A DNA stretch of 12,237 nucleotides from Desulfatitalea sp. (GTDB lineage Bacteria; Desulfobacterota; Desulfobacteria; Desulfobacterales; Desulfosarcinaceae), in contig JABDRH010000061.1 in assembly GCA_013041835.1 (NCBI GenBank), positions 1 through 12,237 on the forward strand, written 5' to 3'. The notes beneath the pieces were generated by a model. That model worked only from the letters and a program-made list of their open reading frames with translations. It did no database searches and had not been told where the DNA came from. A program made the translations under genes and the position numbers. Of this stretch, positions 754 to 12,237 are shown piece after piece. Each line of letters opens with the position of its first letter. Position 1 is the stretch's first letter.

Positions 754-1621
754 TTATTTCCCTTTGGTGAATAAATACTCAAGACTAATTGTTTCTCGTC
801 CGATCCATGAGGTGGGCATGATAAAATTGTGTGCGAGCGTGCTATGCAAGTCTATATGATCCATGAGCAAAGTGTCACTTATGGTAGTCACCCCCCATTT
901 CGGGAATAAAGGCGGGAACCGATTCGGCTGTTCGATACAAACGCCCTTTTTGATCGTAGTTTTCCACAAACCGGATGAGAAAAGTTTCTTTGTCTAAGTA
1001 AATGATGCGATTGGAGTAGACAAAGTTCTTGTCAAGTATATTCATCTTGATAACATACACAGGCCTTCGTTCCCATTCTAAATTATGATATTCCACCCCA
1101 TTCGATGGTGAGGTTATATACGCTGCCCCTGTGTCGTTGCTTGGAAAAAGAAATTCACGATCTTCAATCAGTTCCAATTTCATCGGAAAAACAGTCAACG
1201 ATGGTTTTTGCACACAGCCGTCGGTGTCAAGATATATTGCATCCCCCCCACCTACTGCGTCTTGAACATCGGTGGATGACAAAAGGCGAACGCGTCTGAG
1301 CGCACTTACATACATTGTTAACCGATCTCTCTTTTCCGGGTCTGAGTAAATAATGTAGTTTACGACATTTCCATACATATCCCGTGGAGCGAAATATTTG
1401 GCACTGTAGCTTTCAAATTCGCCCTGCATTTGAGCTCTTTGGTCAAACCAACCCATTGGTTCTGTAACTCTGCCTTGAAGCCTGAATTTAAAAAGGTTGT
1501 AAACCGCAAGAAAATCTTCTTTTAGATTGCGTTTCCAACCATGCGCTTCTGTAATCTGGTATTTACTTTTAATCAGCCAAATTAGGACCAAGCCGGGAAC
1601 CCGTATTGGGATTAAAAGTGA
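754..1621 (-). pseudogene. DUF1329-family protein remnant, 5' truncated and frameshifted
   Basis: DUF1329 proteins are roughly 400-460-residue exported proteins with a LolA-like fold, often linked to envelope transport of hydrophobic compounds. The remnant carries their C-terminal half: the segment MYVSALRRVRLLSSTDVQDA, then EDREFLFP, RRPVYVIKMN, IIYLDKETFLIRF and ENYDQKGRLYRT. The first frame stops at 875 after ...GGDYHK. Skipping one base in the G6 run (plus 891-896) enters the frame ending at 754, which reads ISDTLLMDHIDLHSTL and ends SLEYLFTKGK, as expected for the family's C-terminus. There is no signal peptide or N-terminal half. The open frame begins straight after the TGA of the upstream AhpD-like gene, and the nominal start is a TTG at 1591 without a Shine-Dalgarno site. 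It is a 5'-deleted relic with one indel, or a deleted gene plus a sequencing error. Confidence 0.75.
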
Positions 1622-2350
1622 TCAAGCAAAAGCAGCATACTCCGCTAAAGAAACGTACAGTGCCTGCAAGCTTTCCTTGACAATTGCGCGCTGTTCGTTG
1701 GCGTGTTGTACCATGTTTGGGTCGCTCCACTCGATTGGCTCCTCAACCCAGCGCAACTTACAGGCGTTTTGAAACATGGCGCACTGGAAAGCAAACCCGA
1801 CAAAGAGGATGTGACGGAGGGTCTTCTTTTCTCCCCATGTTTTCAGCGCCTGATCGAACAATTCATCGGACATCGTATTTTCGAGACAAGCCCGAGTGAA
1901 CTTTAGAGTCAAACGCTACTCGTCAGTCCAGCAGGCCGAGTCCGGGAAAAACACCATGCCGAGCCGCTGGTGGCTGGCATCCTCCTTTTCAAACATATCG
2001 ATTAGCCTAGCCGTCGTTTCGGCCCCAGTGGCGGCCACCCATTCGGAACCGGTATATTGTCCGACAGCGTTGCAAATCAGGTTCAGAGGGCCAAATGGTA
2101 TAAACTGGCTGTCCGGTGCAAGGAGAACTTCGCATCCCAATTCATAGACATCGAAGAGCGCCTGAAGCTCCGGGTCACTTGCCAGAAGCCAAAGGCCGTC
2201 ACTGGGCATGACCCATTTCAGGTTGTCCTTGGCCATCGCCTTTTCTTCCTGGCTCAGATTAGTCAATGCGTCGATGTCGGCCTCGGTGCGAACAACCGGA
2301 AGCTGGCATCCCTTCGGTGTAATCGTTTGTTTTGCTTGATCTCTTCCCAT
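1622..2350 (-). pseudogene. AhpD-like (carboxymuconolactone decarboxylase-type) protein interrupted by an in-frame TAG
   Basis: The sequence from ATG 2350 (ribosome binding site AAAGGAG, 7 nt upstream) to TGA 1622 is collinear with the four other AhpD-like proteins of this window: an N-terminal TEADIDALTNLSQEEKAMA block, SDGLWLLASDPELQALF, GPLNLICNAVGQYTGSEW, then WTDE-stop-RLTLKFTRAC, MSDELFDQALKTWGEKK and FQNACKLRW. The only interruption is TAG at 1916-1918 (codon 145), where the paralogues have Glu or Gln; one base change explains it. Both halves keep full similarity and frame, so the decay is recent, or the codon is read through (see findings). The AhpD fold is known for peroxidase-linked and decarboxylase enzymes, but no CxxC is visible and the reaction is unknown. 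It is the most promoter-proximal gene of a minus-strand unit with the DUF1329 relic. Confidence 0.8.
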
Positions 2351-2575
2351 TTTTGCATCTCCTTTACCTTCCTATATGTTTTGTTTTTCTTAGAAATCAT
2401 TGAGAACCCCAAAACAATTGACAGCTAACAACTCGTTTTTCTTCACATTTTTACCAAACCGCCTCCTTTCCTTTTTTATGTGGCGCATCCGACATCCAGC
2501 ACCGCTTCGCCACAAGCAACTGAATTTTCTTTTTCCGCAAATCGGTAGTTTGAAACGATGTTTCAGTAGATACCA

Positions 2576-2591
2576 CGCAATCGGCAAGCCA
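2576..2591 (-). promoter_or_regulatory. candidate sigma-54 (-24/-12) promoter
   Basis: On the minus strand the sequence reads TGGCTTGCCGATTGCG. It has TGGC at -24, TTGC at -12 and the exact GG-N10-GC spacing of RpoN promoters (consensus TGGCAC-N5-TTGCW). Transcription would start near 2565 and give a leader of about 215 nt to the AhpD-like start at 2350. A sigma-54 activator gene lies immediately divergent, and a palindrome sits at a typical enhancer distance upstream (2654-2667). This is a motif match only. Confidence 0.45.
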
Positions 2592-2653
2592 CTTTTTTCC
2601 TTATTATATCATTGCGTTGCCGAATTTCCCGGATAGATCTGGTTTTAAATAAT

Positions 2654-2667
2654 CACGAAATTTCGTG
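2654..2667. promoter_or_regulatory. perfect 14-bp palindrome CACGAAATTTCGTG, candidate activator-binding site
   Basis: CACGAAATTTCGTG is a perfect dyad in the otherwise gene-free 2351-2751 interval. It lies about 65 nt upstream of the minus-strand sigma-54-like promoter and about 85 nt upstream of the plus-strand regulator start. That position suits an enhancer site for the divergently encoded sigma-54 activator, or an autoregulatory site. The rest of the interval is AT-rich and shows no credible ORF or RNA gene. Confidence 0.4.
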
Positions 2668-2751
2668 TTATCACTAAATATTGTTGATATGACGGGCGTT
2701 GCCATCTATATTCTTCATACGCATGGTAAATAGCAACAGGAGGACCTTGTT

Positions 2752-2963
2752 ATGAAAAAAAAATTTCCCTCGATTCCACTGTCAGCCTTGCAGACGATGT
2801 GATGGCTTTATCATCCCTATTCAAAGGGCTTTTCTCATTAGACTGGGTCCAGGAGATGACTGGGTTACGGCCCACTCGGATTCTATCACAATTACAAGAA
2901 GGCCTGGAAAATGGGCTATTGATCCAAGAAGGGCTCGGATTATTTCGCTTCAAGCGATCTTAA
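2752..2963 (+). pseudogene. winged-helix segment at the start of a split sigma-54 regulator, out of frame after an A9 run
   Basis: An AGGAGG ribosome binding site lies 8 nt before ATG 2752, followed directly by nine A residues (2755-2763). In the ATG frame translation stops after 16 codons. In the -1 frame entered at the A run (ATT at 2763) it reads ISLDSTVSLADDVMALSS, then LFSLDWVQEMTGLRP and LENGLLIQEGLGLFRF, ending at TAA 2961. This looks like the winged-helix module (helix-turn-helix, then a 'GLL..EG...FRF' wing) that precedes TPR-like repeats in large ATP-dependent regulators. It abuts the next ORF, whose GTG starts 2 nt after the TAA. Either the A9 tract causes programmed slippage or frameshifting, or the gene is broken, or an A is missing from the assembly. 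Confidence 0.55.
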
Positions 2964-2964
2964 T

Positions 2965-3720
2965 GTGAAAGCCAGAATACAAAATCGGTTGGATGACGAA
3001 GTAAAGACACGGTTACGCAAGCGCATCGCGGAGATTCTTTTGCGGGAATCTGAAGCCGGTAATGGGGATGTTCACCCGGTGTTCCACAATCTTCTTCAGC
3101 TTTTAGACGACAAAGAAAACTGCCGGCTGCTTTTGAAGGCCGCTGATCTGTATCAAAAAAACCATCAATACATTAAAGCGCGGCAAGGTTATAAAAATGT
3201 GCTGGACGATATTAAAAGAATCAATGACGACGGGGTGAGAGAACTCTTTACGAAAGCGGCGATCGGCTATTCAACTGCTATAATGGTCTCGGGGGCATTT
3301 GAAACGCAAGAAGTCCACGGTGATGCGAATGTGGCTGTTTTAGCCCTGAACGAAGCGAGGACCAAAGCTGAACAATCAGGCGATCAAAACGCACAGGCCA
3401 TCATCGAACTGCAACTGGCAACCATGAAATTGCTCCTCGGCAAGCATGAGTGCGCCCAATCTCATTTCAATCGCGGGCTGTCGATGGCCGATGGAATCCA
3501 AGACCCTGAGATAAGACAGGAGGTAAACACCTTAAGCACGTTCTTTCTCTTTTGGCAGCATCGCTTTCTGGAAATAATTGCAAATTACGAGAAATTTGTA
3601 TCCGATGAAGGAAAATCAGAGGTCGAAAAATATCCGGAAAACAGATCCCCCCTCTTTATGGGCGCTGTGTTGGGCCGTGAAAGAGGGCCGATTGCCACAT
3701 CACCCTGGGCTGTCCATTGA
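2965..3720 (+). CDS. TPR-like helical protein, probably the middle part of a split regulator
   Basis: This 251-codon ORF starts at GTG 2965, just after the winged-helix segment's stop; no separate ribosome binding site is evident, so translational coupling or an original fusion is likely. The opening KTRLRKRIAEILLRE resembles the linker after winged-helix domains in large LuxR/AAA-type regulators. The rest is helical and TPR-like: LLLKAADLYQKNHQYIKARQ (about 55-75), repeats with ALNEARTKAEQSGD and FNRGLSMADGIQDPEIR, and FFLFWQHRFLEIIANYE (about 192-208). Convincing content ends near VEKYPENRSPLFMGAVLG. The last ~15 residues look out of frame, and the next frame continues from about 3655 with WAVKEGRLPHHPGLSIEKLI and [16 protein letters not shown] up to about 3810. 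Sensor or protein-interaction role is inferred. Confidence 0.55.
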   Translation: MKARIQNRLDDEVKTRLRKRIAEILLRESEAGNGDVHPVFHNLLQLLDDKENCRLLLKAADLYQKNHQYIKARQGYKNVLDDIKRINDDGVRELFTKAAIGYSTAIMVSGAFETQEVHGDANVAVLALNEARTKAEQSGDQNAQAIIELQLATMKLLLGKHECAQSHFNRGLSMADGIQDPEIRQEVNTLSTFFLFWQHRFLEIIANYEKFVSDEGKSEVEKYPENRSPLFMGAVLGRERGPIATSPWAVH

Positions 3721-3770
3721 AAAGCTGATCCGCCGTACCATCACGGGTAAGAATATTGTGAGTCAAGGCA

Positions 3771-4871
3771 TTGCTTACCGTTACAAGGCCGCTATTCAGA
3801 AGCGTACTAACGAACGCCATGGCGATGATTCGGGAAACGGCTGATTCGGGACGAGGCCGAATCAAGGTGTCGGAAGTGGGACGGCCGTTAAATGCCCTCA
3901 GCATGGATACCATTCGCAGTTGCATCTGCGTACCCATGAAATTCAGAGATAAGGTGGCGCGGATGGATGCAAGCGTTCTGATATTGGGTGAGACAGGCGT
4001 GGGAAAGGAACTGGTCGCCAGGGCCATCCATGGTCACAGTCCTCGAAAGAATAGCCCCTTTATCCAGGTCAACTGCAGTGCCCTGCCGGAAACCCTCATC
4101 ACAAGCGAACTCTTCGGTCATGAAAAGGGGGCGTTTACCGGGGCCGAAAAACGACGTATCGGCAGGTTCGAGCTGGCCGACCAAGGGACCCTTTTTCTTG
4201 ACGAAATCGGAGATATTTCCCTTGAAGTGCAGGTTCGCATGCTTCGGGTGCTTCAGAGCAAAGAATTTGAAAGAGTGGGTGGAAAAGAAGTCCTGAAGTC
4301 CAATTTTCGGCTGATCACCGCTACAAATCGCGACCTGAAAGCTGCGATTCATGCAGGAAAGTTCCGCGAAGACCTTTTTTACAGACTAAACGTCTTTCCC
4401 ATTCATGTCCCCCCTCTCAGGCACAGGAGGGAAGATATTCCTTTGCTGGCCGGGTATTTTCTTGAAATCTATTCAAAAAAAGCCGGAAAGGAAATCAAGA
4501 TGTCTGAATCTGACATGAAAAAATTTATCGGTTACGACTGGCCCGGAAATGTGCGCGAATTGGAAAATGTGATTGAAAGGGGCGCCATTTTGAGTTCAGG
4601 GAAAAGATTTAAAATGCCGGAATTGCACCCAGGCAAACCTAAAGTCGCTGAAGAATATGATCCTGACGGTTTGACACTCAGGGAATATGAATGTCAGCAT
4701 ATCCTTCAGGCGCTTGAAAAGACCGGGGGTAAAATTTATGGAAAAGCAGGGGCCGCCGAACTTTTGGATATCCACCCGAATACACTGATTAGTCGTGTTA
4801 AAAAGCTGGGGATCGTCAGGAATCCGAAATCATGGAGCCTAAGGGCTCGCGCAAAGATATCCGGAGAATAA
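3771..4871 (+). CDS. sigma-54-dependent transcriptional activator, AAA+ and Fis-type HTH domains
   Basis: This is the catalytic part of an enhancer-binding protein that uses ATP hydrolysis to remodel sigma-54 RNA polymerase. In the 366-codon frame: Walker A GETGVGKE (73-80), the sigma-54 contact loop GAFTGA (120-125), Walker [11 protein letters not shown] (139-148), FREDLFYRL with arginine-finger residues (198-206), [13 protein letters not shown] (254-266), and a C-terminal Fis-type [23 protein letters not shown] (327-346) of the FhlA kind. All motifs are intact. The nominal start is TTG 3771; ATG 3819 is an alternative, but neither has a clear ribosome binding site, and the helical segment just upstream lies in another frame. 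No GAF or receiver domain is visible, so the gene may be the surviving 3' end of a larger regulator. It is convergent with the HXXEE gene at 4922 and probably controls minus-strand operons here. Confidence 0.85.
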
Positions 4872-4911
4872 TATTGAAATAGGTTTACCCCCAATGTTGC
4901 ATGAATCTGAA

Positions 4912-4939
4912 AAGCTGAAGCTTACTTTTGATTCAGCTT
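4912..4939. terminator. possible weak bidirectional hairpin between convergent genes
   Basis: AAGCTGAA (4912-4919) and TTCAGCTT (4932-4939) form an 8-bp stem between the regulator stop at 4871 and the end of the HXXEE gene at 4922. The right arm lies inside the HXXEE coding end. There is no strong U-tract, so terminator function is uncertain. Confidence 0.25.
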
Positions 4940-5539
4940 GGCAAGTACGGAAGCTCTGCCATTTTTTATGAATTCGAAATAGCTCATGCCATTTATTCTC
5001 ACGACAGTTACCTGTCCGATCAAGAAGACCGTGACGATGTAAAGGATGGAAAACAGCCATGCCACCGGCTGCATCAGGTTGTTTTGTATAACATAAATGA
5101 TGCAGTAGATTGAAACGGGCGCCATAAGAACAGAGGTCACCATCCCAGGCGAGTAAAAACGCTCCAATTTGAACAGTCTGACCATACCGAAATGCGCAAA
5201 TAGCTCGCCAATGCCGAGCAACATTGGGGCTATGGCTAGCCAGGCTACCTGATGGAAGAAGAAAGGAACAAAAGCGACGGTGAAAATGCCTAAAGTCACA
5301 ACGAGTTTGGAAGCCTCCGGTTTGGGAAGGGAAAAATCCAGACTACTCATCGCCATCTCCGCAAAACCACCCGGGAACTTAAATTCCTCCAATTCGTGAA
5401 GAACATACAAAGGAAATATTAAGCCCACCATCCGCTGCAAGACCGGCATCGTGGACCAGTTCACCGCAGTATAAATTGCAGCCGTTACACCCGTGGCAGC
5501 CAAAAAATATAGGTTATACTTAAAAATAAAGTTCTTCAT
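4922..5539 (-). CDS. HXXEE-domain membrane protein (copy 1)
   Basis: This 205-residue polytopic membrane protein has about six hydrophobic segments (roughly 8-26, 33-48, 78-95, 97-116, 133-151, 159-180). It carries the family motif HELEEFKFPGGF (48-59), with H48, E51 and E52 near the end of the second segment, and a conserved GELFAHF (E112, H116) plus KLERFYSPG (124-132). HXXEE proteins are a family of unknown function; the paired His/Glu residues suggest a metal site. The start is ATG 5539 rather than the longer open frame to 5698, because GGAG sits 5 nt upstream and the paralogue at 10340-10954 begins at the same residue (MKNFIFK versus MKSFIFK). It is the last gene of the minus-strand array, following an AhpD-like gene across a 213-nt gap occupied by a long hairpin repeat. 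The substrate is unknown. Confidence 0.8.
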   Translation of the reverse strand: MKNFIFKYNLYFLAATGVTAAIYTAVNWSTMPVLQRMVGLIFPLYVLHELEEFKFPGGFAEMAMSSLDFSLPKPEASKLVVTLGIFTVAFVPFFFHQVAWLAIAPMLLGIGELFAHFGMVRLFKLERFYSPGMVTSVLMAPVSIYCIIYVIQNNLMQPVAWLFSILYIVTVFLIGQVTVVRINGMSYFEFIKNGRASVLAKLNQK

Positions 5540-5589
5540 CACAACTCCATTCTTCAAATCACAATCAGTGGCATCGAGAAGATCGAAGG

Positions 5590-5757
5590 GCTTAGAGTGC
5601 AGGAAAGAAATAGTTCCTGCAGGTTGCGCCGGATTTGGGTTCGTCTGCAAGGCACATCCGCCGGTGCATATCAGGATATGTGCCGGTGGATGTAACACCG
5701 CAGACTTAGCACAAAGACAAGCAAGATGGGGGAATTATTCTTTCCTGCACCCTTAGC
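5590..5757. repeat. long hairpin repeat, MITE-like, copy A
   Basis: This 168-nt imperfect inverted repeat has outer arms GTGCAGGAAAGAAATAGTTCC (5597-5617) and GGAATTATTCTTTCCTGCAC (5731-5750), extended weakly to 5590 and 5757. An intermediate stem pairs GTCTGC (5643-5648) with GCAGAC (5700-5705). A central 18-bp stem (5654-5671 with 5676-5693) has a 4-nt CAGG loop. Its three non-Watson-Crick positions are all G-U pairs when read as plus-strand RNA. The outer right arm contains the stop codon of the AhpD-like gene at 5753. It shares blocks with the repeat at 8162-8295, so it is a family rather than a one-off terminator. No ORF lies within it. Confidence 0.7.
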
Positions 5758-6499
5758 TACCAGGTATAGAGATATGAGGTACAGTATCCCACAGGGCCCG
5801 CATATCCGCCCTCGTCTTTTGGTAAGGCGCGATGATAGCTTCCACGAGCTCAGCGGGCATACCCATTTTCAATGGCGCCAGCATTTCGGGGGAAAGCTTA
5901 ATGTTCATCATGTTGTTGAGCATCCCCCAAGTGTTCACAAAGGACAACCAGAAAAAAAGCCGGAGGAGCTTCTGCTCTCCCCATGCCACGCGGGCCTGTT
6001 TGAATAATTCATCGGTCATCGCATTATCAAGGCAGGCCGCGGCAAACTTGAGGCACAGGCGCTCTTCTTCAGTCCAGAGAATCGAGTCCGGGTTATCCAA
6101 CACGCCGAGCTTCATGTAGTAGTCTATTCCCATCTTGTGCGACTTTATCCCCACAGCCAAAAGAGCGGAGAAAAGACCATGCATGTAATCGTTACCGGAG
6201 CGCCTTACGGCTTCCAAGGTAACCAGGTTCATAGGACTGAAGGGCGTCCCCTGGAAATCTCCTTCTAGGAACGCAGTGCCCATCTGCTCAATTAGGTGCA
6301 TGAACGCCTGCAGCTCCGGGTCACTCCCAAGCAGAGCCCAACCGTCACTGAGTGGGACTTTTTTCAGGTTTTCCAACGCCAACGCCTTCTCCTCATCGCT
6401 CAGGTTGGATAATGCTTCCACCTCGGCAGGTGTTTTAACAATCGGTAATCGCGTTTTCAACGGGTTCTTTATTGTTGCTTTACTTTCAGAATTACTCAT
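5753..6499 (-). CDS. AhpD-like (carboxymuconolactone decarboxylase-type) protein, copy near HXXEE 1
   Basis: This 248-residue all-helical AhpD-fold protein has a strong ribosome binding site (AAGGAGGT, 5 nt before ATG 6499). Conserved blocks: VKTPAEVEALSNLSDEEKAL (21-40), SDGWALLGSDPELQAF (51-66), SPMNLVTLEAVRRSGNDYMH (88-107), WTEEERLCLKF (142-152), MTDELFKQARVAWGEQKLL (161-179) and a hydrophobic end with NTWGMLNN. The order WTEEER...DELF...WGE...LL is that of carboxymuconolactone decarboxylase-type proteins, but the AhpD CxxC redox motif is absent. A redox or decarboxylase activity therefore cannot be claimed. It has no signal peptide and is likely cytoplasmic. The decayed small ORF upstream overlaps its start by ATGA. 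The stop codon falls in hairpin repeat A, and the HXXEE gene follows. Confidence 0.8.
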   Translation of the reverse strand: MSNSESKATIKNPLKTRLPIVKTPAEVEALSNLSDEEKALALENLKKVPLSDGWALLGSDPELQAFMHLIEQMGTAFLEGDFQGTPFSPMNLVTLEAVRRSGNDYMHGLFSALLAVGIKSHKMGIDYYMKLGVLDNPDSILWTEEERLCLKFAAACLDNAMTDELFKQARVAWGEQKLLRLFFWLSFVNTWGMLNNMMNIKLSPEMLAPLKMGMPAELVEAIIAPYQKTRADMRALWDTVPHISIPGS

Positions 6500-6640
6500 A
6501 ACAAACCTCCTTGTTCGGATGGACCCAGCAAGTGCATGCGCCCATCATTCGTTCCCATTTTTCTGTACATTTCCTTCAGCTCCACGCGCATGTCAGGGAT
6601 ATCGGCATCCGGCTCATCCTTCTTTCTGTCGCAAGTGTCT
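6496..6640 (-). pseudogene. decayed duplicate of the 86-residue small gene at 7095-7355
   Basis: On the minus strand this stretch reads DEPDADIPDMRVELKEMYRK, close to DEPNADIPAIRAELKEIYQK of the small protein at 7095-7355. DNA similarity continues through ATGCAC...GGGTCCAT. One base is missing relative to the intact copy near the ACGAATGATGGG segment, so the last ~18 codons are out of frame. The frame ends with TGA overlapping the ATG of the AhpD-like gene (ATGA). The N-terminal half is missing. It is best read as a 3' remnant of a tandem duplication. Confidence 0.6.
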
Positions 6641-6644
6641 ATGA

Positions 6645-7061
6645 CTATAAAAATGGAAAACTTGCGTCTAAATCTTCTCTAAGCGCTTTCGCAACTTCAG
6701 GAAATTTTTCCCACCGCGCTTTATACAGTTCGATAATCTTCTTTTTTGTATCTATGGGTTCGTCAGTGGTGATAATATCGAATGCCTTGACGCGGGCGAC
6801 CATCTTGCGCAGAATCGTTGCTTCATCGCCCCGTCCGTGCGGATCGAGCATGTGAGTCCGAAATGCTTCGATGTCCTTGAATTTCAGATACCGGCATCGT
6901 GGTAGCCGTCTTGTGGATTCCCGAAATAGCAACCGGCGATCCACTTTTCAATAAAGGGCTTGGTGGCGAATTCCGCCCGCCAACGCTGCTATCCGGGCTG
7001 CCATTTCCTGGCTGGAAGGCGTGCGCTTGAGTCCGTGACACGCGACGTGGTAGATTGCCAT
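6645..7061 (-). pseudogene. unrecognised gene broken by two frameshifts
   Basis: A convincing start exists at ATG 7061 (GGAGG, 10 nt upstream), 33 nt after the previous gene's stop. The first frame reads MAIYHVACHGLKRTPSSQEM and then AARIAALAGGIRHQ, but hits TGA near 6948. A second frame gives FIEKWIAGCYFGNPQDGYHD until about 6892. A third frame gives FKDIEAFRTHMLDPHGRGDE through FPEVAKALREDLDASFPFL, ending in TAG at 6645. Together they would make a protein of about 138 residues. I do not recognise the family; the layout loosely resembles small dimeric alpha-beta barrel (Dabb/EthD-like) proteins, a weak guess. It lies in the AhpD/HXXEE array between the small gene and its decayed copy. Confidence 0.5.
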
Positions 7062-7094
7062 GGTGATGTTCCTCCTTTCATGTGCTCTTAGTCG

Positions 7095-7355
7095 TTATCC
7101 CCCCAGCATCATTTTGACAATGGACCCGGCGGGTGCATGTACCCAATCCGACGTTTCTATCTTTTGGTATATCTCCTTGAGCTCCGCGCGGATGGCCGGG
7201 ATATCGGCATTCGGCTCATCCGTCGCATGGAAATGATAACCGGGCTGCCCGGGTCCGGGTCCGGGGGGAAGACCGGCTTTGGCGGCATTTTTCATGGCAA
7301 ACAGGAGTCTTTCGTGCGCGGCCAGGTGCTCCGGAGCGCCAAGCGCCCACTCCAT
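7095..7355 (-). CDS. small unrecognised protein, 86 residues
   Basis: This ORF starts at ATG 7355, 28 nt after the stop of the upstream AhpD-like gene, so it is probably co-transcribed; the ribosome binding site is weak (GGTTGAG). Its N-terminal half is helical (HLAAHERLLFAMKNAAKAG). A Gly/Pro-rich linker (LPPGPGPGQPG, about 29-39) follows, then HATDEPNADIPAIRAELKEI (43-62), a hydrophilic helix. There is no signal peptide or membrane segment. I do not recognise the family. That the second half recurs as a decayed copy at 6496-6640 supports it being a real gene. The motif TDEP plus a charged helix also occurs in the neighbouring broken gene (TDEPIDTKKKIIELY), which may hint at a shared ancestry. 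Confidence 0.55.
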   Translation of the reverse strand: MEWALGAPEHLAAHERLLFAMKNAAKAGLPPGPGPGQPGYHFHATDEPNADIPAIRAELKEIYQKIETSDWVHAPAGSIVKMMLGG

Positions 7356-7383
7356 GACTCAACCATTTAAAATCACGCAGCAA

Positions 7384-8097
7384 TCAATCGGCAAACTTTT
7401 TCTTGGAATTCCACAATGAACGCAAGCCTTTTTGCACGTCATCGATTCCCAGTTTTTCCGTCTCGTCGGGTGCAATCTTGGCATCGGATACCACAGGCGT
7501 GTAGGTCAGGTTGCAGGCATTTTCAACCATCGCCCACGTGTGAGCGTAGCCAATGAAAAAGATGTGGCGAAGAAGGCGTTTTTCTCCCCATACCTCGCGC
7601 GCCTGAGCGAACAATTCATCGGTCATCGAATTGGTGACACAAGCGTCAATAAACTTCAGGGCCAGACGTTGCTCTTCATTCCAGAGCGCCGAGTCCGGGT
7701 AAGGCAACATGGCGAGTTGCGCGGGGTCCCAATATTCCTTGGACAGGGGAGACGTGATAGCGCCTTTGGCCAAAAGCGCCGCCATCCACTCACACCCCGT
7801 AAGCCTGGCGACTTCATGGCAAATCAGGTTCATGGGGCTCCCCGAAGTGCCCTGGAAGTCCGGCGCAAGGAGTCCGATGAGCGCATTCTCGTAAATGTTT
7901 GCGACAGCCTGCATCTCCGGGTCGTTTTCCAGCATGAGCCAGCCGTCGCTTGGCGGAACTCTTTTCAGATTGTCCTTCGCCGCCGCCTTCTCTGCCTCGC
8001 TGAGGTGGGACATCGCCTCGATATCCGCGTCATTGCGAAGAATCGGCAATCGAATCCCTTTCGGCTGTTTGGATCGTTCATTTGCATTTTTTGTCAT
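7384..8097 (-). CDS. AhpD-like (carboxymuconolactone decarboxylase-type) protein, middle copy
   Basis: This 237-residue paralogue has its start at ATG 8097, not the upstream ATG at 8127. AAAGGAGACCC lies 5-8 nt before 8097, and the same leader precedes the paralogue at 9037. Conserved blocks: RLPILRNDADIEAMSHLSEA, SDGWLMLENDPEMQAV, GSPMNLICHEVARLTGCEWM, WNEEQRLALKF (Gln where most copies have Glu), MTDELFAQAREVWGEKRLLR and HTWAMVENACNLTY. The single Cys in GCEWM is not part of a CxxC. It is probably cytoplasmic. It is followed closely by the small gene at 7355, and preceded by hairpin repeat B, which separates it from the next copy upstream. The biochemical role is unknown; the family assignment rests on the conserved helical pattern. 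Confidence 0.8.
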   Translation of the reverse strand: MTKNANERSKQPKGIRLPILRNDADIEAMSHLSEAEKAAAKDNLKRVPPSDGWLMLENDPEMQAVANIYENALIGLLAPDFQGTSGSPMNLICHEVARLTGCEWMAALLAKGAITSPLSKEYWDPAQLAMLPYPDSALWNEEQRLALKFIDACVTNSMTDELFAQAREVWGEKRLLRHIFFIGYAHTWAMVENACNLTYTPVVSDAKIAPDETEKLGIDDVQKGLRSLWNSKKKFAD

Positions 8098-8161
8098 TTT
8101 TGGGTCTCCTTTATTTAAAAATTCCAATGATACACCATTGAATCATTAAGGCGCTTAACGG

Positions 8162-8295
8162 AAAAGAATATACCAACTTTGCGGCGAATTTTTTTTGTCT
8201 TCAAGGCGCGTGTCAAAGGATGCATACGGTCTGTATTCGGCCTTTGACACAACGCATAAGACGGGAAAAAAGACAAGCCAGCGGGTATATTCTTT
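8162..8295. repeat. long hairpin repeat, MITE-like, copy B
   Basis: This is an imperfect inverted repeat with outer arms AAAAGAATATACC (8162-8174) and GGTATATTCTTT (8284-8295), and a perfect 10-bp inner stem GTGTCAAAGG (8210-8219) with CCTTTGACAC (8241-8250). It shares order and sequence with copy A: TTGCGGCGAATTT (8179-8191) versus TTGCGCCGGATTT, GTCTTCAAGGC (8197-8207) versus GTCTGCAAGGC, and AAGACAAGCCAG followed by TATTCTTT versus AAGACAAGCAAG and TATTCTTT. It starts about 13 nt beyond the stop of the AhpD-like gene at 8309. Apart from the following gene's ribosome binding site, the 8098-8308 gap holds nothing else. Confidence 0.65.
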
Positions 8296-8308
8296 GACAG
8301 AAATCGTT

Positions 8309-9037
8309 TTACCCTCCCATCTTGGGCATAGAGGCCCATAAAGAACGCAAGCCTTCCATCACCTTTGGGTCCAAATCCAAGCGCACTTCGGGGTCGGGAG
8401 GTATATCCGCCTGCTCCTGGAACCGTTCGGTGGGCTCCCACTTCAAGTTACAGGCGTTTTGAACCATGGCCCAAAAGTGGACATAGGAAATCCAGCGAAT
8501 GATCCGAAGAAGGCGTTTTTCTCCCCATGTCTCGCGCGCCTGAGCGAACACTTCATCGGTCATCGTATTGGTGAGGCAAGCACGTGTAAACTTTAGGGTT
8601 AAGCGTTCCTCGTCCGTCCAGATATTCGAGTCCGGGTTTTCGATCACGGCGAGTTTCGCGGGATTTAAATCCCTTTTCATGACCTTTGCCATGTTAATGG
8701 CGATAGTAGACATACCGATGGCCATCCAATCGGCTCCCATATGCCTTCCGACTTCGATGCAAATCAGGTTCATCGGACCGAACGGAACCATTTGGGTGTC
8801 CGGTTTAAGCAGACCGATGCTTGCTATTTCATCGATGCGTGATATGGCTTGCAGCTCCGGGTCGTGCCCCAGCAAATACCAACCGTCGCTTGGCGGAACC
8901 CTTCTTTGGTTTTCCTTGGCCGCCGCTTTCTCCTCACTGTTCAGATGCGACAATGCGTCGATGTCCGCGTCCGTGCGAACCATCGGTAATCGTATGCCTT
9001 TTGTCTGCTGGGATAGTTCATTGTTGTGTTGTGCCAT
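8309..9037 (-). CDS. AhpD-like (carboxymuconolactone decarboxylase-type) protein
   Basis: This 242-residue protein starts at ATG 9037 with AAAGGAGACCC upstream, nearly the same leader as the copy at 8097. Blocks: RLPMVRTDADIDALSHLNSE (17-36), SDGWYLLGHDPELQAI, GPMNLICIEVGRHMGADWM, WTDEERLTLKFTRAC, MTDEVFAQARETWGEKRLLR and FWAMVQNACNLKW. It is the closest relative in the window to the amber-interrupted gene at 1622-2350: both share LTLKFTRACL and the QNAC...W ending. It has no CxxC and no signal peptide. A candidate sigma-54 promoter lies about 60 nt upstream (9097-9112), so this gene may head an operon running to 7095 or beyond. The function is not known; any enzymatic label would be a guess from the fold. 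Confidence 0.82.
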   Translation of the reverse strand: MAQHNNELSQQTKGIRLPMVRTDADIDALSHLNSEEKAAAKENQRRVPPSDGWYLLGHDPELQAISRIDEIASIGLLKPDTQMVPFGPMNLICIEVGRHMGADWMAIGMSTIAINMAKVMKRDLNPAKLAVIENPDSNIWTDEERLTLKFTRACLTNTMTDEVFAQARETWGEKRLLRIIRWISYVHFWAMVQNACNLKWEPTERFQEQADIPPDPEVRLDLDPKVMEGLRSLWASMPKMGG

Positions 9038-9096
9038 TTTGTTGGGTCTCCTTTCGACTTAAACCTCTCATTAGAACATCAATAGTGGACAGTTTA

Positions 9097-9112
9097 TCCA
9101 AAGTACGTGCCA
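9097..9112 (-). promoter_or_regulatory. candidate sigma-54 (-24/-12) promoter for the AhpD-like gene at 9037
   Basis: The minus strand reads TGGCACGTACTTTGGA. It has a perfect -24 block TGGCACG and correct spacing to TTGG at -12, where the consensus is TTGC. The start would fall near 9085, giving a leader of about 48 nt. A perfect direct repeat GTAATCATT lies just upstream (9131-9139 and 9148-9156) and could bind an activator. The mismatch in the -12 GC lowers confidence. Confidence 0.4.
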
Positions 9113-9219
9113 GTGATAGAATGAATCCTCGTAATCATTAACAAGTTGTAATCATTTGGAAAGGCACGGTAATTCTTGACAATAAAGATTTTTAGGGGCA
9201 ACTCCATTTTTTAAGATAT

Positions 9220-9252
9220 CTCTATAGCCCATTTTAGAACCAAGCTCCAAAC
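9220..9252 (+). repeat. left copy of an inverted repeat flanking the exported AhpD-like gene
   Basis: CTCTATAGCCCATTTTAGAA continues to CCAAGCTCCAAAC. It matches the reverse complement of 10273-10304 at 24 of the first 26 positions, including an unbroken CCATTTTAGAACCAAGC. The two copies bracket about 1.08 kb containing the signal-peptide AhpD-like gene. No obvious target-site duplication is seen. The remaining 9253-9430 stretch downstream of that gene shows no convincing ORF. Confidence 0.65.
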
Positions 9253-9430
9253 CAATAGTCCATTTGCTTTACCCACATATCAACGCATGGCACCAAGCGA
9301 GGCGCCGGAGGAGCTTACGCCATCTCGATGAGGATTACGAAGCTCCTTCACAGGCTTTGCGCGAAAGATAGGCCTTGCCGACCATATTTCCGGCTGCCGT
9401 TTGGCGACACACGATTCCAGCATGACTGCA

Positions 9431-10237
9431 TCAATTTCCCAAAGAATAGAAGTAATTTAGTAGTTGTTGTCTTTTGGCTTCGTTTGCACCACCCATATTT
9501 TCTATAACCTCGGGTGGTATAGACGGCGCCGGCTCCGCCACGGGGTCGTACGTTAAGTCCGTGACTTTCGATACCAACGCCCACAAATTAATGTATCCAA
9601 TCCAGGTGACGTTCCGGAGGAGTTGTTTCTCTCCCCATGCCTCGAGCGCCTCTTGGTACAATTCATCAGACAACATATTTTCAATTAACGCCTTGGTAAA
9701 CCTGAGGGTCAAGCGCTCTTCGTCTGTCCAGCCACGCCAATTCGGGCACATAATGAAGTGGAGCTTCCTCTTGTAGTATTCAGGCAGTTCGAACGCAGCT
9801 ATCTGGGCAATGGTGACGGCTTCGAAAAAGGGCCACATGTAATCGCTGCCGGAACGCTTTGAAATATAAAGGGAAATCAGGTTCAACGGGCTATAAGGGA
9901 TCCCTTGCATATCCGGGTAGCAGAGCGCGCCCAATTCATTGCCGAAGATTATCCAGAGCATCTGTAATTCCGGGTCATTTCCCAGCACAGCCCATCCCTG
10001 ACTGGCTACAAGATTCCTTTGAATGATTGTCTCTCCCAATGCCTTCTCAGAATCCGCCAGGTGAGATAATGCCGCAAGGTCGTCGACAGTTTCAATAAGC
10101 GGCATTCTCGGCTCTGTCGCCGCCTGCCCACTTCCGCCATGGTTATTGGCGCCAACGACGACAGGCGCGGCTGCAATCACCATGAGACATAAAACAAAAA
10201 TGTGACCACCCATCATCATCTTCTTGACTCTTTTCAT
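9431..10237 (-). CDS. exported AhpD-like (carboxymuconolactone decarboxylase-type) protein
   Basis: This 268-residue paralogue differs from the others by a clear Sec-type signal peptide: basic MKRVKK, then a hydrophobic stretch from about residue 12 to 28 (FVLCLMVIAAAPVVVG), with probable cleavage near residue 30 before NNHGGSG. The mature part keeps the family blocks: VDDLAALSHLADSEKAL, SQGWAVLGNDPELQML, SPLNLISLYISKRSGSDYM, WTDEERLTLRFTKAL, LSDELYQEALEAWGEKQLLR. The start ATG 10237 has GGGAG 8 nt upstream. A periplasmic or membrane-facing role follows from the signal peptide; the activity is unknown and no CxxC is present. It lies 102 nt downstream of the HXXEE copy 2 stop, is bracketed by a 26-bp inverted repeat (9220-9252 and 10273-10304), and is the most divergent copy. 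Confidence 0.82.
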   Translation of the reverse strand: MKRVKKMMMGGHIFVLCLMVIAAAPVVVGANNHGGSGQAATEPRMPLIETVDDLAALSHLADSEKALGETIIQRNLVASQGWAVLGNDPELQMLWIIFGNELGALCYPDMQGIPYSPLNLISLYISKRSGSDYMWPFFEAVTIAQIAAFELPEYYKRKLHFIMCPNWRGWTDEERLTLRFTKALIENMLSDELYQEALEAWGEKQLLRNVTWIGYINLWALVSKVTDLTYDPVAEPAPSIPPEVIENMGGANEAKRQQLLNYFYSLGN

Positions 10238-10272
10238 GCAGTACTCCCTTCATCTGTTAATGAATTCAAATA

Positions 10273-10304
10273 GTTTAGGCTTGGTTCTAAAATGGACCAT
10301 AGAG
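10273..10304 (-). repeat. right copy of the inverted repeat flanking the exported AhpD-like gene
   Basis: Read on the minus strand this is CTCTATGGTCCATTTTAGAA followed by CCAAGCCTAAAC, the partner of 9220-9252. It sits 35-67 nt upstream of the ATG at 10237, so it could also contain promoter or operator sequence for that gene. Confidence 0.65.
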
Positions 10305-10339
10305 CAATTTTATTTTCACCTGAGCATGCGATCCAACGC

Positions 10340-10954
10340 TTAACCCTTGGGTGCGGGATGCTTGGCGGCTCTCGCATTTTTAATGAATTCAAAAACCTTC
10401 CGACCATTCATTCTTATGATAATGATCGAGCCGATCGCCATGACTATGCCCGCATAAACAATAGAGAACAGCCATTCCACCGGATGCATCAGTTTGTTTT
10501 GCACGACATAGATAATGCTGTAGATGGGTATGGGTTGCATCAGGACCGCGGTCACCAGTCCGGGCGAGTAAAAACGCTCCAATTTGAACCTCTTGACCGC
10601 ACCGATATGACCAGGAAACTGACCAATAAAGAGCAGCATGGGGGCCATGGTCAACCATACCACATGCGGAAAGAATAGAGGCACTAAACCCAGGCAGAGT
10701 ATACCGACAACCAAAACGAGTTCGTTGATCTCCGGTCTTGGGAAAGTAATATTCAAATGACGCGTCTCCATCTCCATGAAGCCACCCGGGAACCGATACT
10801 CCTCCCAAGCGTGGACAACGAGCGCGATAAAGATCAGGCCCGCCATTCGCTGTAGAACCGGCATTGCAGACCAGCTCATCGCTGTATAAATTGCAACCAT
10901 CCCCCCTGTAACGGCTAGTATATTAAGGCTATTCTTAAAAATAAAGCTTTTCAT
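10340..10954 (-). CDS. HXXEE-domain membrane protein (copy 2)
   Basis: This 204-residue paralogue of the protein at 4922-5539 is collinear through the whole length. The start MKSFIFKN has AGGA upstream (8 nt). The motif HAWEEYRFPGGF (48-59) holds H48, E51 and E52; KLERFYSPG (124-132) is identical. The GELFAHF of copy 1 is GQFPGHIG here, keeping H116 but replacing E112 by Gln. About six hydrophobic segments predict an inner-membrane protein, and the short C-terminal tail is basic. Function is unknown in the family; the His/Glu set suggests metal binding. It is the first gene of the minus-strand array, preceded by a long-hairpin leader (10968-11084) and a sigma-54-like promoter (11249-11264), and is divergent from the GAF/sigma-54 regulator at 11400. 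Confidence 0.82.
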   Translation of the reverse strand: MKSFIFKNSLNILAVTGGMVAIYTAMSWSAMPVLQRMAGLIFIALVVHAWEEYRFPGGFMEMETRHLNITFPRPEINELVLVVGILCLGLVPLFFPHVVWLTMAPMLLFIGQFPGHIGAVKRFKLERFYSPGLVTAVLMQPIPIYSIIYVVQNKLMHPVEWLFSIVYAGIVMAIGSIIIIRMNGRKVFEFIKNARAAKHPAPKG

Positions 10955-11305: not shown

Positions 11306-11399
11306 TTGTGCGGCGGCAAATGAGATCATCCGATAATTTGCGTACGCGTTTCCATGGGACGGAATTATCATTTTCCCAATGTTGCATTTACATTCGGAT

Positions 11400-12237
11400 A
11401 TGGGTACGATGAATTTGAATAGGATACAGGAAGCAAGGAAGGATGCAGGCAAAATGAGAGCGTTTGAACGGCTTCTTTCCGAGGTCTCGGCTAAATACAT
11501 TAACTTGCCTATCGAAGAGATCGAGCACACGACACGGGATGACTTCGGCCGGCTCGCCAGGCTTCTTGGCGTGGATCGCTGTTTTCTCAATTTGATCAAA
11601 GAGGGGACAGCGGACCTGGACATTCCAAACCCGGATTGGTTCAAACAGTTTGCGTGGTGGCCGGAGCAGGACTCTGGCGCGATTCAGAAGCTGCAGGATC
11701 AGGGGTATGCCTATATCGTGCCTCAGCATTGGCAGTTCCAAAACAAGACGATAAAAGGGGATCCTTGGCAATTTACGGATATCAGTGAGATTCCCGAGGG
11801 GGCGAAAGAAGTTTATTCGTCCCTGCTCGGTATTAAATCCTTACTTTCGGTGCCCATTCCGGCCGGCGGCTCGATCGCCGGCGCCCTTACCGTCGCCACG
11901 ACCCGAAACCAGCGAACCTGGACGGATGAGGATATTGCCACGGTTCAACTCTTTGGAGAAATTTTCGTCAATGCCCTCATCAGAAAGCGAACCGAGGCGT
12001 CTCTGCGCATGGCCCTTGAGGAAGTGAAACTGCTCAAGGACCGGTTTGAAGCGGACTATATCTACTTAAAGGAAGAGATCGATTTAACCCATGATCTCGG
12101 TGATATTGTCGGCGCCACCAGAGCCTTCAAGGATGTCCTGTCGAAAGTCAGGCTTGTCGCCCCCACAAATTCCACGGTTCTAGTCCTCGGCGAAACCGGC
12201 ACCGGAAAAGGGGTGATTGCCAGGGCCATCCACAATC
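11400..12237 (+). CDS. GAF-domain sigma-54 transcriptional activator, FhlA-like, 3' end outside the window
   Basis: The frame is open to the right edge (279 codons visible from ATG 11400). An N-terminal GAF-type sensor domain spans about residues 20-195: AFERLLSEVSAKYINLP, LARLLGVDRCFLNLI, LLGIKSLLSVPI and WTDEDIATVQLFGEIFVNAL. A helical linker (ASLRMALEEVKLLKDRF) follows, then the start of the sigma-54 AAA+ domain (DIVGATRAFKDVL) with Walker A GETGTGKG (264-271); the usual final Glu of GETGTGKE is Gly here. The order matches FhlA-type activators that sense a small molecule through GAF. The start is uncertain: in-frame ATGs at 11379, 11400, 11409 and 11454 are possible, and 11454 has an AGG-type site just upstream. 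It is divergent from the HXXEE/AhpD array, which it is the natural candidate to control. Confidence 0.85.
   Translation, partial: MGTMNLNRIQEARKDAGKMRAFERLLSEVSAKYINLPIEEIEHTTRDDFGRLARLLGVDRCFLNLIKEGTADLDIPNPDWFKQFAWWPEQDSGAIQKLQDQGYAYIVPQHWQFQNKTIKGDPWQFTDISEIPEGAKEVYSSLLGIKSLLSVPIPAGGSIAGALTVATTRNQRTWTDEDIATVQLFGEIFVNALIRKRTEASLRMALEEVKLLKDRFEADYIYLKEEIDLTHDLGDIVGATRAFKDVLSKVRLVAPTNSTVLVLGETGTGKGVIARAIHN

Follow-up and report, generated by a model that had tools for sequence, protein, structure and literature searches.

The window analysed here is a 12,237-nucleotide stretch of DNA (contig JABDRH010000061.1, or C415, of Desulfatitalea sp. assembly GCA_013041835.1, genome G000), and it carries five members of a family of AhpD-like genes that we label FAM. 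With one copy as the query, FAM was found at 46 places in G000 and at none in 39 other relatives, including 10 genomes of the same genus, a copy number in excess of chance. FAM proteins lack the AhpD redox site, and their genes recur beside DUF1329 genes and genes for HXXEE membrane proteins. We tentatively propose, at somewhat less than even confidence, that FAM, a redox-dead family of AhpD fold, is an added component of an AmeABCD-type system that handles hydrophobic compounds and is present in multiple copies.

FAM is a large, apparently lineage-private gene family

An iterated profile run over the fetched contigs of G000 (4.32 Mb, 693 contigs, 86.9% complete) collected 45 FAM open reading frames (ORFs) on 26 contigs, aligned as 47 rows, in which the interrupted copy 1 of the window counts twice and several rows are pieces at contig ends. 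Most of the proteins are about 240-300 amino acids long. Contig C361 encodes two 488-amino-acid proteins with two FAM domains each, from genes adjacent on the fetched stretch (L033, 5481-6944 and 6966-8429); their first domains pair together in the tree, as do their second domains, so the domain fusion preceded the gene duplication. The two ends of C78 (L032, 1-249 and 6005-6349) hold C-terminal and N-terminal pieces of the same FAM type, and so one gene may be double-counted there or the contig may be repeat-bounded.

Outside G000, a 23-member profile (A1) was run against two overlapping sets, with scoring limited to seven candidates per genome: 388 further genomes of the class gave 2 with a match, and 394 further genomes of the phylum gave 3. 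Each of the five matches was weak, with an E-value between 1e-6 and 8e-4 and an alignment of 67-82 positions. The sole Pfam match of these proteins was PF02627 (CMD), above the cut-off in four and just under it in the fifth. Searches of genome-contig, viral, and plasmid collections for FAM returned nothing. Among the genomes searched, the family therefore looks like a lineage-private gene-family expansion.

FAM has a predicted AhpD fold without the redox site

The AlphaFold2 model of copy 4 predicts the all-helical AhpD fold, and profile-profile comparison with CMD-like proteins (hhalign) places FAM in the AhpD/CMD superfamily, with a probability of 97.1 (P 5.2e-11) for subfamily A and a weaker match for subfamily B (75.8, P 2.3e-5); the PF02627 matches of the five outside proteins point the same way. 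The AhpD-like identity given in the first-pass annotation is thus upheld by predicted structure and profile comparison, with no backing from Pfam: PF02627 had no match above its curated cut-off in 23 A and 8 B members, nor anywhere in G000. Some PF02627 matches in the relatives G001, G010, G015, G026, and G032 contain one in-frame TGA, as expected of selenoprotein AhpD-like genes.

The absence of a CxxC motif, remarked on earlier for the five window copies, extends to all 47 aligned rows, and none of the 43 rows that cover the AhpD catalytic position has a histidine there; three subfamily A rows carry one two residues before it. Cysteine occupies the first redox position in 12 of 29 A rows and 0 of 14 B rows covering the site, and the second in 1 of 43, so the pairing of CxxC with a catalytic histidine that marks AhpD peroxidases is not found in FAM. 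Beyond the absent PF02627 match, CxxC, and histidine, the usual protein length and the two fused double-domain genes also set FAM apart from the superfamily. Six residues are invariant or nearly so (R16, D59, W140, D161, W171, and R178). Hydropathy gave no signal-peptide-like stretch in most copies, which are therefore probably cytosolic.

Many FAM genes lie near Ame-type genes

In Castellaniella defragrans, AmeABCD comprises AmeA (DUF1302), AmeB (DUF1329, LolA-like), AmeC (COG4447), and AmeD (HAE3 RND), and deletion of ameABCD lowered monoterpene tolerance and raised Nile Red accumulation in de-energised cells (PMC6394551). We mapped 41 loci of G000, namely the window and 40 fetched stretches (one all N), picked for FAM, DUF1329, or HXXEE matches except for two arbitrary contigs. 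Pfam identified DUF1302, DUF1329, PSII_BNR (YCF48), and MMPL at locus L042; profiles grown from the L042 genes labelled the other loci, with Pfam checks on five more genes, and the RND genes are recognized here by MMPL Pfam matches only. All four Ame-type genes stand together in one cassette at 7 of the 41 loci (L039, L041, L042, L066, L071, L072, and L073, the DUF1302 of L041 being assigned by Pfam). The likeness to AmeABCD extends to the A-B-C-D order at L039 and L073 and to neighbouring catabolic genes on some contigs. The earlier statement that the array could be assigned to no known pathway can be refined, since the surrounding module of DUF1302, DUF1329, YCF48, and MMPL/RND genes matches AmeABCD in composition; that the system is substrate-specific remains plausible.

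Unlike AmeABCD, the G000 set is expanded, often has FAM after DUF1329, and includes HXXEE. DUF1329 has 29 matches in G000, against 0-2 in each of 24 relatives. A FAM lies next to 12 of its 28 ORFs, in every case on the same strand; chance adjacency would be about 2% per DUF1329 gene if about 4,300 genes are assumed. FAM directly follows DUF1329 in 11 of these pairs, with open frames -95 to 128 bases apart; the order is reversed in the remaining pair, which involves the DUF1329 relic of the window. At least one Ame-type gene lies on the same contig stretch as 30 of 44 mapped FAM ORFs (17 of 26 contigs). On C321 the order runs DUF1329-FAM-FAM-YCF48-RND-HXXEE-HXXEE-HXXEE, and on C613 an HXXEE gene lies between DUF1329 and YCF48. 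The same quartet occurs in Caballeronia, Aromatoleum, Azoarcus, and Pseudomonas plasmid records (four read of eight matched), beside coenzyme A (CoA) or other catabolic enzymes. The addition of AhpD-fold and HXXEE genes to Ame-type cassettes is the new feature here.

Both HXXEE genes of the window score well above the PF13787 cut-off of 25 bits (Table 1), and each adjoins an AhpD-like gene, as first described. G000 holds ten HXXEE copies, all retaining H-x-x-E-E, whereas one of 24 relatives has a single copy; eight of the ten lie on FAM contigs, five next to a FAM, and the number and this placement set the G000 copies apart within the PF13787 family. HXXEE genes are present in two of the seven complete quartets (L041 and L066). 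The suggested paralogue expansion linked to HXXEE and DUF1329 is real.

A mosaic window built from duplicated blocks

A tree of 44 FAM rows splits subfamilies A (29 rows) and B (15 rows) at full support and pairs every window copy with kin on other contigs (Table 1), which makes the window a mosaic of duplicated blocks. Copy 2 groups with its C321 relative alone at a support of 91/79, and a larger clade unites copies 3 and 4 with their kin. At the DNA level, the window blocks are about 70-80% identical to the kin contigs. This points to an origin of the FAM cassettes through old duplication of blocks followed by divergence. The copies do belong to one family, as assumed when the five were first grouped; a "local" expansion is not supported, the members being spread over 26 contigs and each window copy having its nearest relative on another contig.

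Ratios of nonsynonymous to synonymous substitution (dN/dS, Nei-Gojobori) of about 0.15-0.22 in pairs of intact FAM genes, at a dS of 0.8-1.2 that is near saturation, show purifying selection on the family; the ratio for broken copy 1 against its kin is about 0.39. Protein identity to the compared kin is 64-76% for the intact window copies and 50% for copy 1, and at 64-76% the FAM contigs are not assembly duplicates. Native origin was anchored by HldE on one FAM contig, C348. Within the genus, this HldE matched 7 of 10 genomes at 64-67% identity and went unmatched in 3. Elsewhere identity did not exceed 58%, apart from a 68% match over a fragment of 53 residues in G013, which belongs to the same family; the pattern indicates that C348 is native.

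Other features of the window

Table 1. Features of the window, with the closest relatives of each FAM copy in the tree
Feature	Position	Strand	Remarks
DUF1329 relic (AmeB-like)	757..1591	-	Pfam DUF1329 3.4e-20; tblastn pieces against C693 homologue
FAM copy 1	1622..2350	-	Interrupted; nearest kin on C693
Broken regulator	2923..4871	+	TPR and AAA+ sigma-54 activator portions lie in separate frames
HXXEE membrane protein 1	4922..5539	-	Pfam PF13787, 43.4 bits
165-bp palindromic MITE-like dispersed repeat	5591..5755	.	Abuts stop of FAM copy 2
FAM copy 2	5753..6499	-	Intact; nearest kin on C321, C78
Broken Dabb-like protein	6645..7061	-	Homologue open on C175; Dabb match below Pfam cut-off
Second small protein, C-terminal half	7101..7358	-	179-amino-acid homologue on C175
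FAM copy 3	7384..8097	-	Intact; nearest kin on C175, C78
FAM copy 4	8309..9037	-	Intact; AlphaFold2 model pLDDT 90, AhpD fold; nearest kin on C175, C78
FAM copy 5	9431..10237	-	Intact; N-terminal signal-peptide-like stretch (hydropathy); nearest kin on C497
HXXEE membrane protein 2	10340..10954	-	Pfam PF13787, 40.7 bits; model pLDDT 84.6
GAF + sigma-54 activator	11379..12236	+	Cut by contig end

All AhpD-like, HXXEE, DUF1329, and sigma-54 elements named in the first-pass annotation are present, with differences in their state. Four of its five AhpD-like paralogues are intact, and copy 1 is divided into two pieces by an in-frame TAG at 1916-1918. The DUF1329 relic, also delimited at 757-1579, has no N-terminus and is broken in frame near 893-990 (tblastn against the C693 homologue). 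Both sigma-54 activators were detected, the left one in broken frames and the right one truncated.

The co-occurrence of FAM with DUF1329 and HXXEE recurs on other contigs of G000; sigma-54 activators are not a constant partner, as the six regulators scanned on other FAM contigs comprise four TetR, one IclR, and one sigma-54 response regulator. The last of these lies on C158 (L049, 219-3075), where it and a histidine kinase directly precede a DUF1329-FAM-FAM run, so that a sigma-54 regulator is seen near FAM for a second time. Sigma-54 promoter-like sites in the window were not above chance (3 found, 2.1 expected), and a sigma-54 link is possible for some FAM cassettes.

The decayed left end contains a fragment of an IS66 TnpA accessory gene (219-674, NCBIfam 7e-19). 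The two small-gene remnants at 6645-7358 have open homologues between two FAM genes on C175 (L031), which indicates decay of a shared block. The 165-bp repeat resembles a miniature inverted-repeat transposable element (MITE), with terminal inverted repeats and a folding z-score of -7.1; it gave 58 blastn matches in G000, some being the opposite strand of the same copy, and a further copy is found on C559, a short way upstream of a FAM gene.

Proposed function and competing explanations

We propose that an AmeABCD-type system, built from a DUF1302 outer-membrane protein, a DUF1329 periplasmic LolA-like protein, a YCF48 propeller, and an MMPL/RND pump, may be served on the inner side of the pump by FAM proteins that would each bind, and perhaps process, one hydrophobic substrate or CoA derivative. 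Each copy would have its own substrate preference, HXXEE would act as a membrane partner of FAM, and the cassettes would have been duplicated as blocks before diverging; contact of FAM with the transporter and the direction of transport are presumed in this scheme. A stronger form of the proposal, in which FAM is a fifth, cytosolic subunit class of the AmeABCD pump, an interchangeable substrate-selector duplicated with the cassettes some forty times, seems to us unlikely. Expanded substrate-binding families with many diverged paralogues beside transport genes are familiar from SusC/D pairs and the Bordetella Bug proteins. FAM resembles them in this arrangement; the proteins are unrelated, and FAM is mostly cytosolic.

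Several observations weigh against a role for FAM in an Ame-type system: (i) no Ame-type gene is on the contig stretch of 14 of 44 FAM ORFs (9 of 26 contigs), direct adjacency to DUF1329 is lacking for 32 of 44 FAM ORFs, and to FAM for 16 of 28 DUF1329 ORFs; (ii) only three of the seven complete quartets include FAM (L039, L041, and L042), and the window itself has no intact Ame-type gene, only the DUF1329 relic; (iii) AmeA-C are outer-membrane or periplasmic, whereas FAM is mostly cytosolic by hydropathy; (iv) the four plasmid records, whose gene tables are incomplete, have no annotated FAM-like or HXXEE gene between quartet members; and (v) HXXEE also occurs away from Ame and FAM genes, e.g., on a Rhizobium plasmid beside TetR and SDR genes. 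In addition, thiolases, enoyl-CoA hydratase, acyl-CoA dehydrogenase, SDRs, FAD oxidoreductase, and DAPG hydrolase are neighbours on some FAM contigs, and FAM beside thiolases, SDRs, and acyl-CoA dehydrogenases would suit an enzyme equally.

The main rival is accordingly that FAM proteins are cytosolic, non-redox lyases, isomerases, or hydrolases of CMD fold in parallel degradation pathways, with transporters co-located through shared substrates. We regard this as a real possibility, somewhat less probable than the Ame-linked role; it explains the data nearly as well because many FAM genes sit beside acyl-CoA and SDR enzymes without a pump gene. The conserved arginine, aspartate, and tryptophan residues and the lack of signal-peptide-like stretches in most copies would also suit enzymes, whereas the most regular neighbour of FAM is DUF1329 (12 of 44 FAM ORFs) and no particular enzyme. 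That the copy number is an artefact of bin contamination, assembly duplicates, or decaying repeats is improbable: a fragmented, incomplete bin, several broken window genes, and a dispersed repeat abutting one copy would invite this explanation, and the divergence between kin, the native HldE of C348, and the low dN/dS all speak against it. Least probable are ordinary AhpD-type peroxidases that guard cells growing on toxic compounds. The fold and the first-position cysteine of some A rows might be cited in their favour; the missing CxxC and catalytic histidine, the absence of that cysteine from subfamily B, and the near absence of the second cysteine oppose them.

Conclusions

FAM accounts for about one gene in a hundred of a genome with an assumed 4,300 genes, yet it was found in none of 10 genomes of the same genus. 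An enzyme fold without its catalytic centre, multiplied in one lineage, represents an unusual lineage-specific expansion. If the Ame link proves functional, the paralogue set would offer a panel for studying the sorting and movement of hydrophobic compounds by bacteria, and it would help to give roles to DUF1302, DUF1329, and HXXEE, all named as of unknown function. Were FAM indeed a substrate-selector, one bacterium would possess many systems, each dedicated to handling a different hydrophobic molecule.

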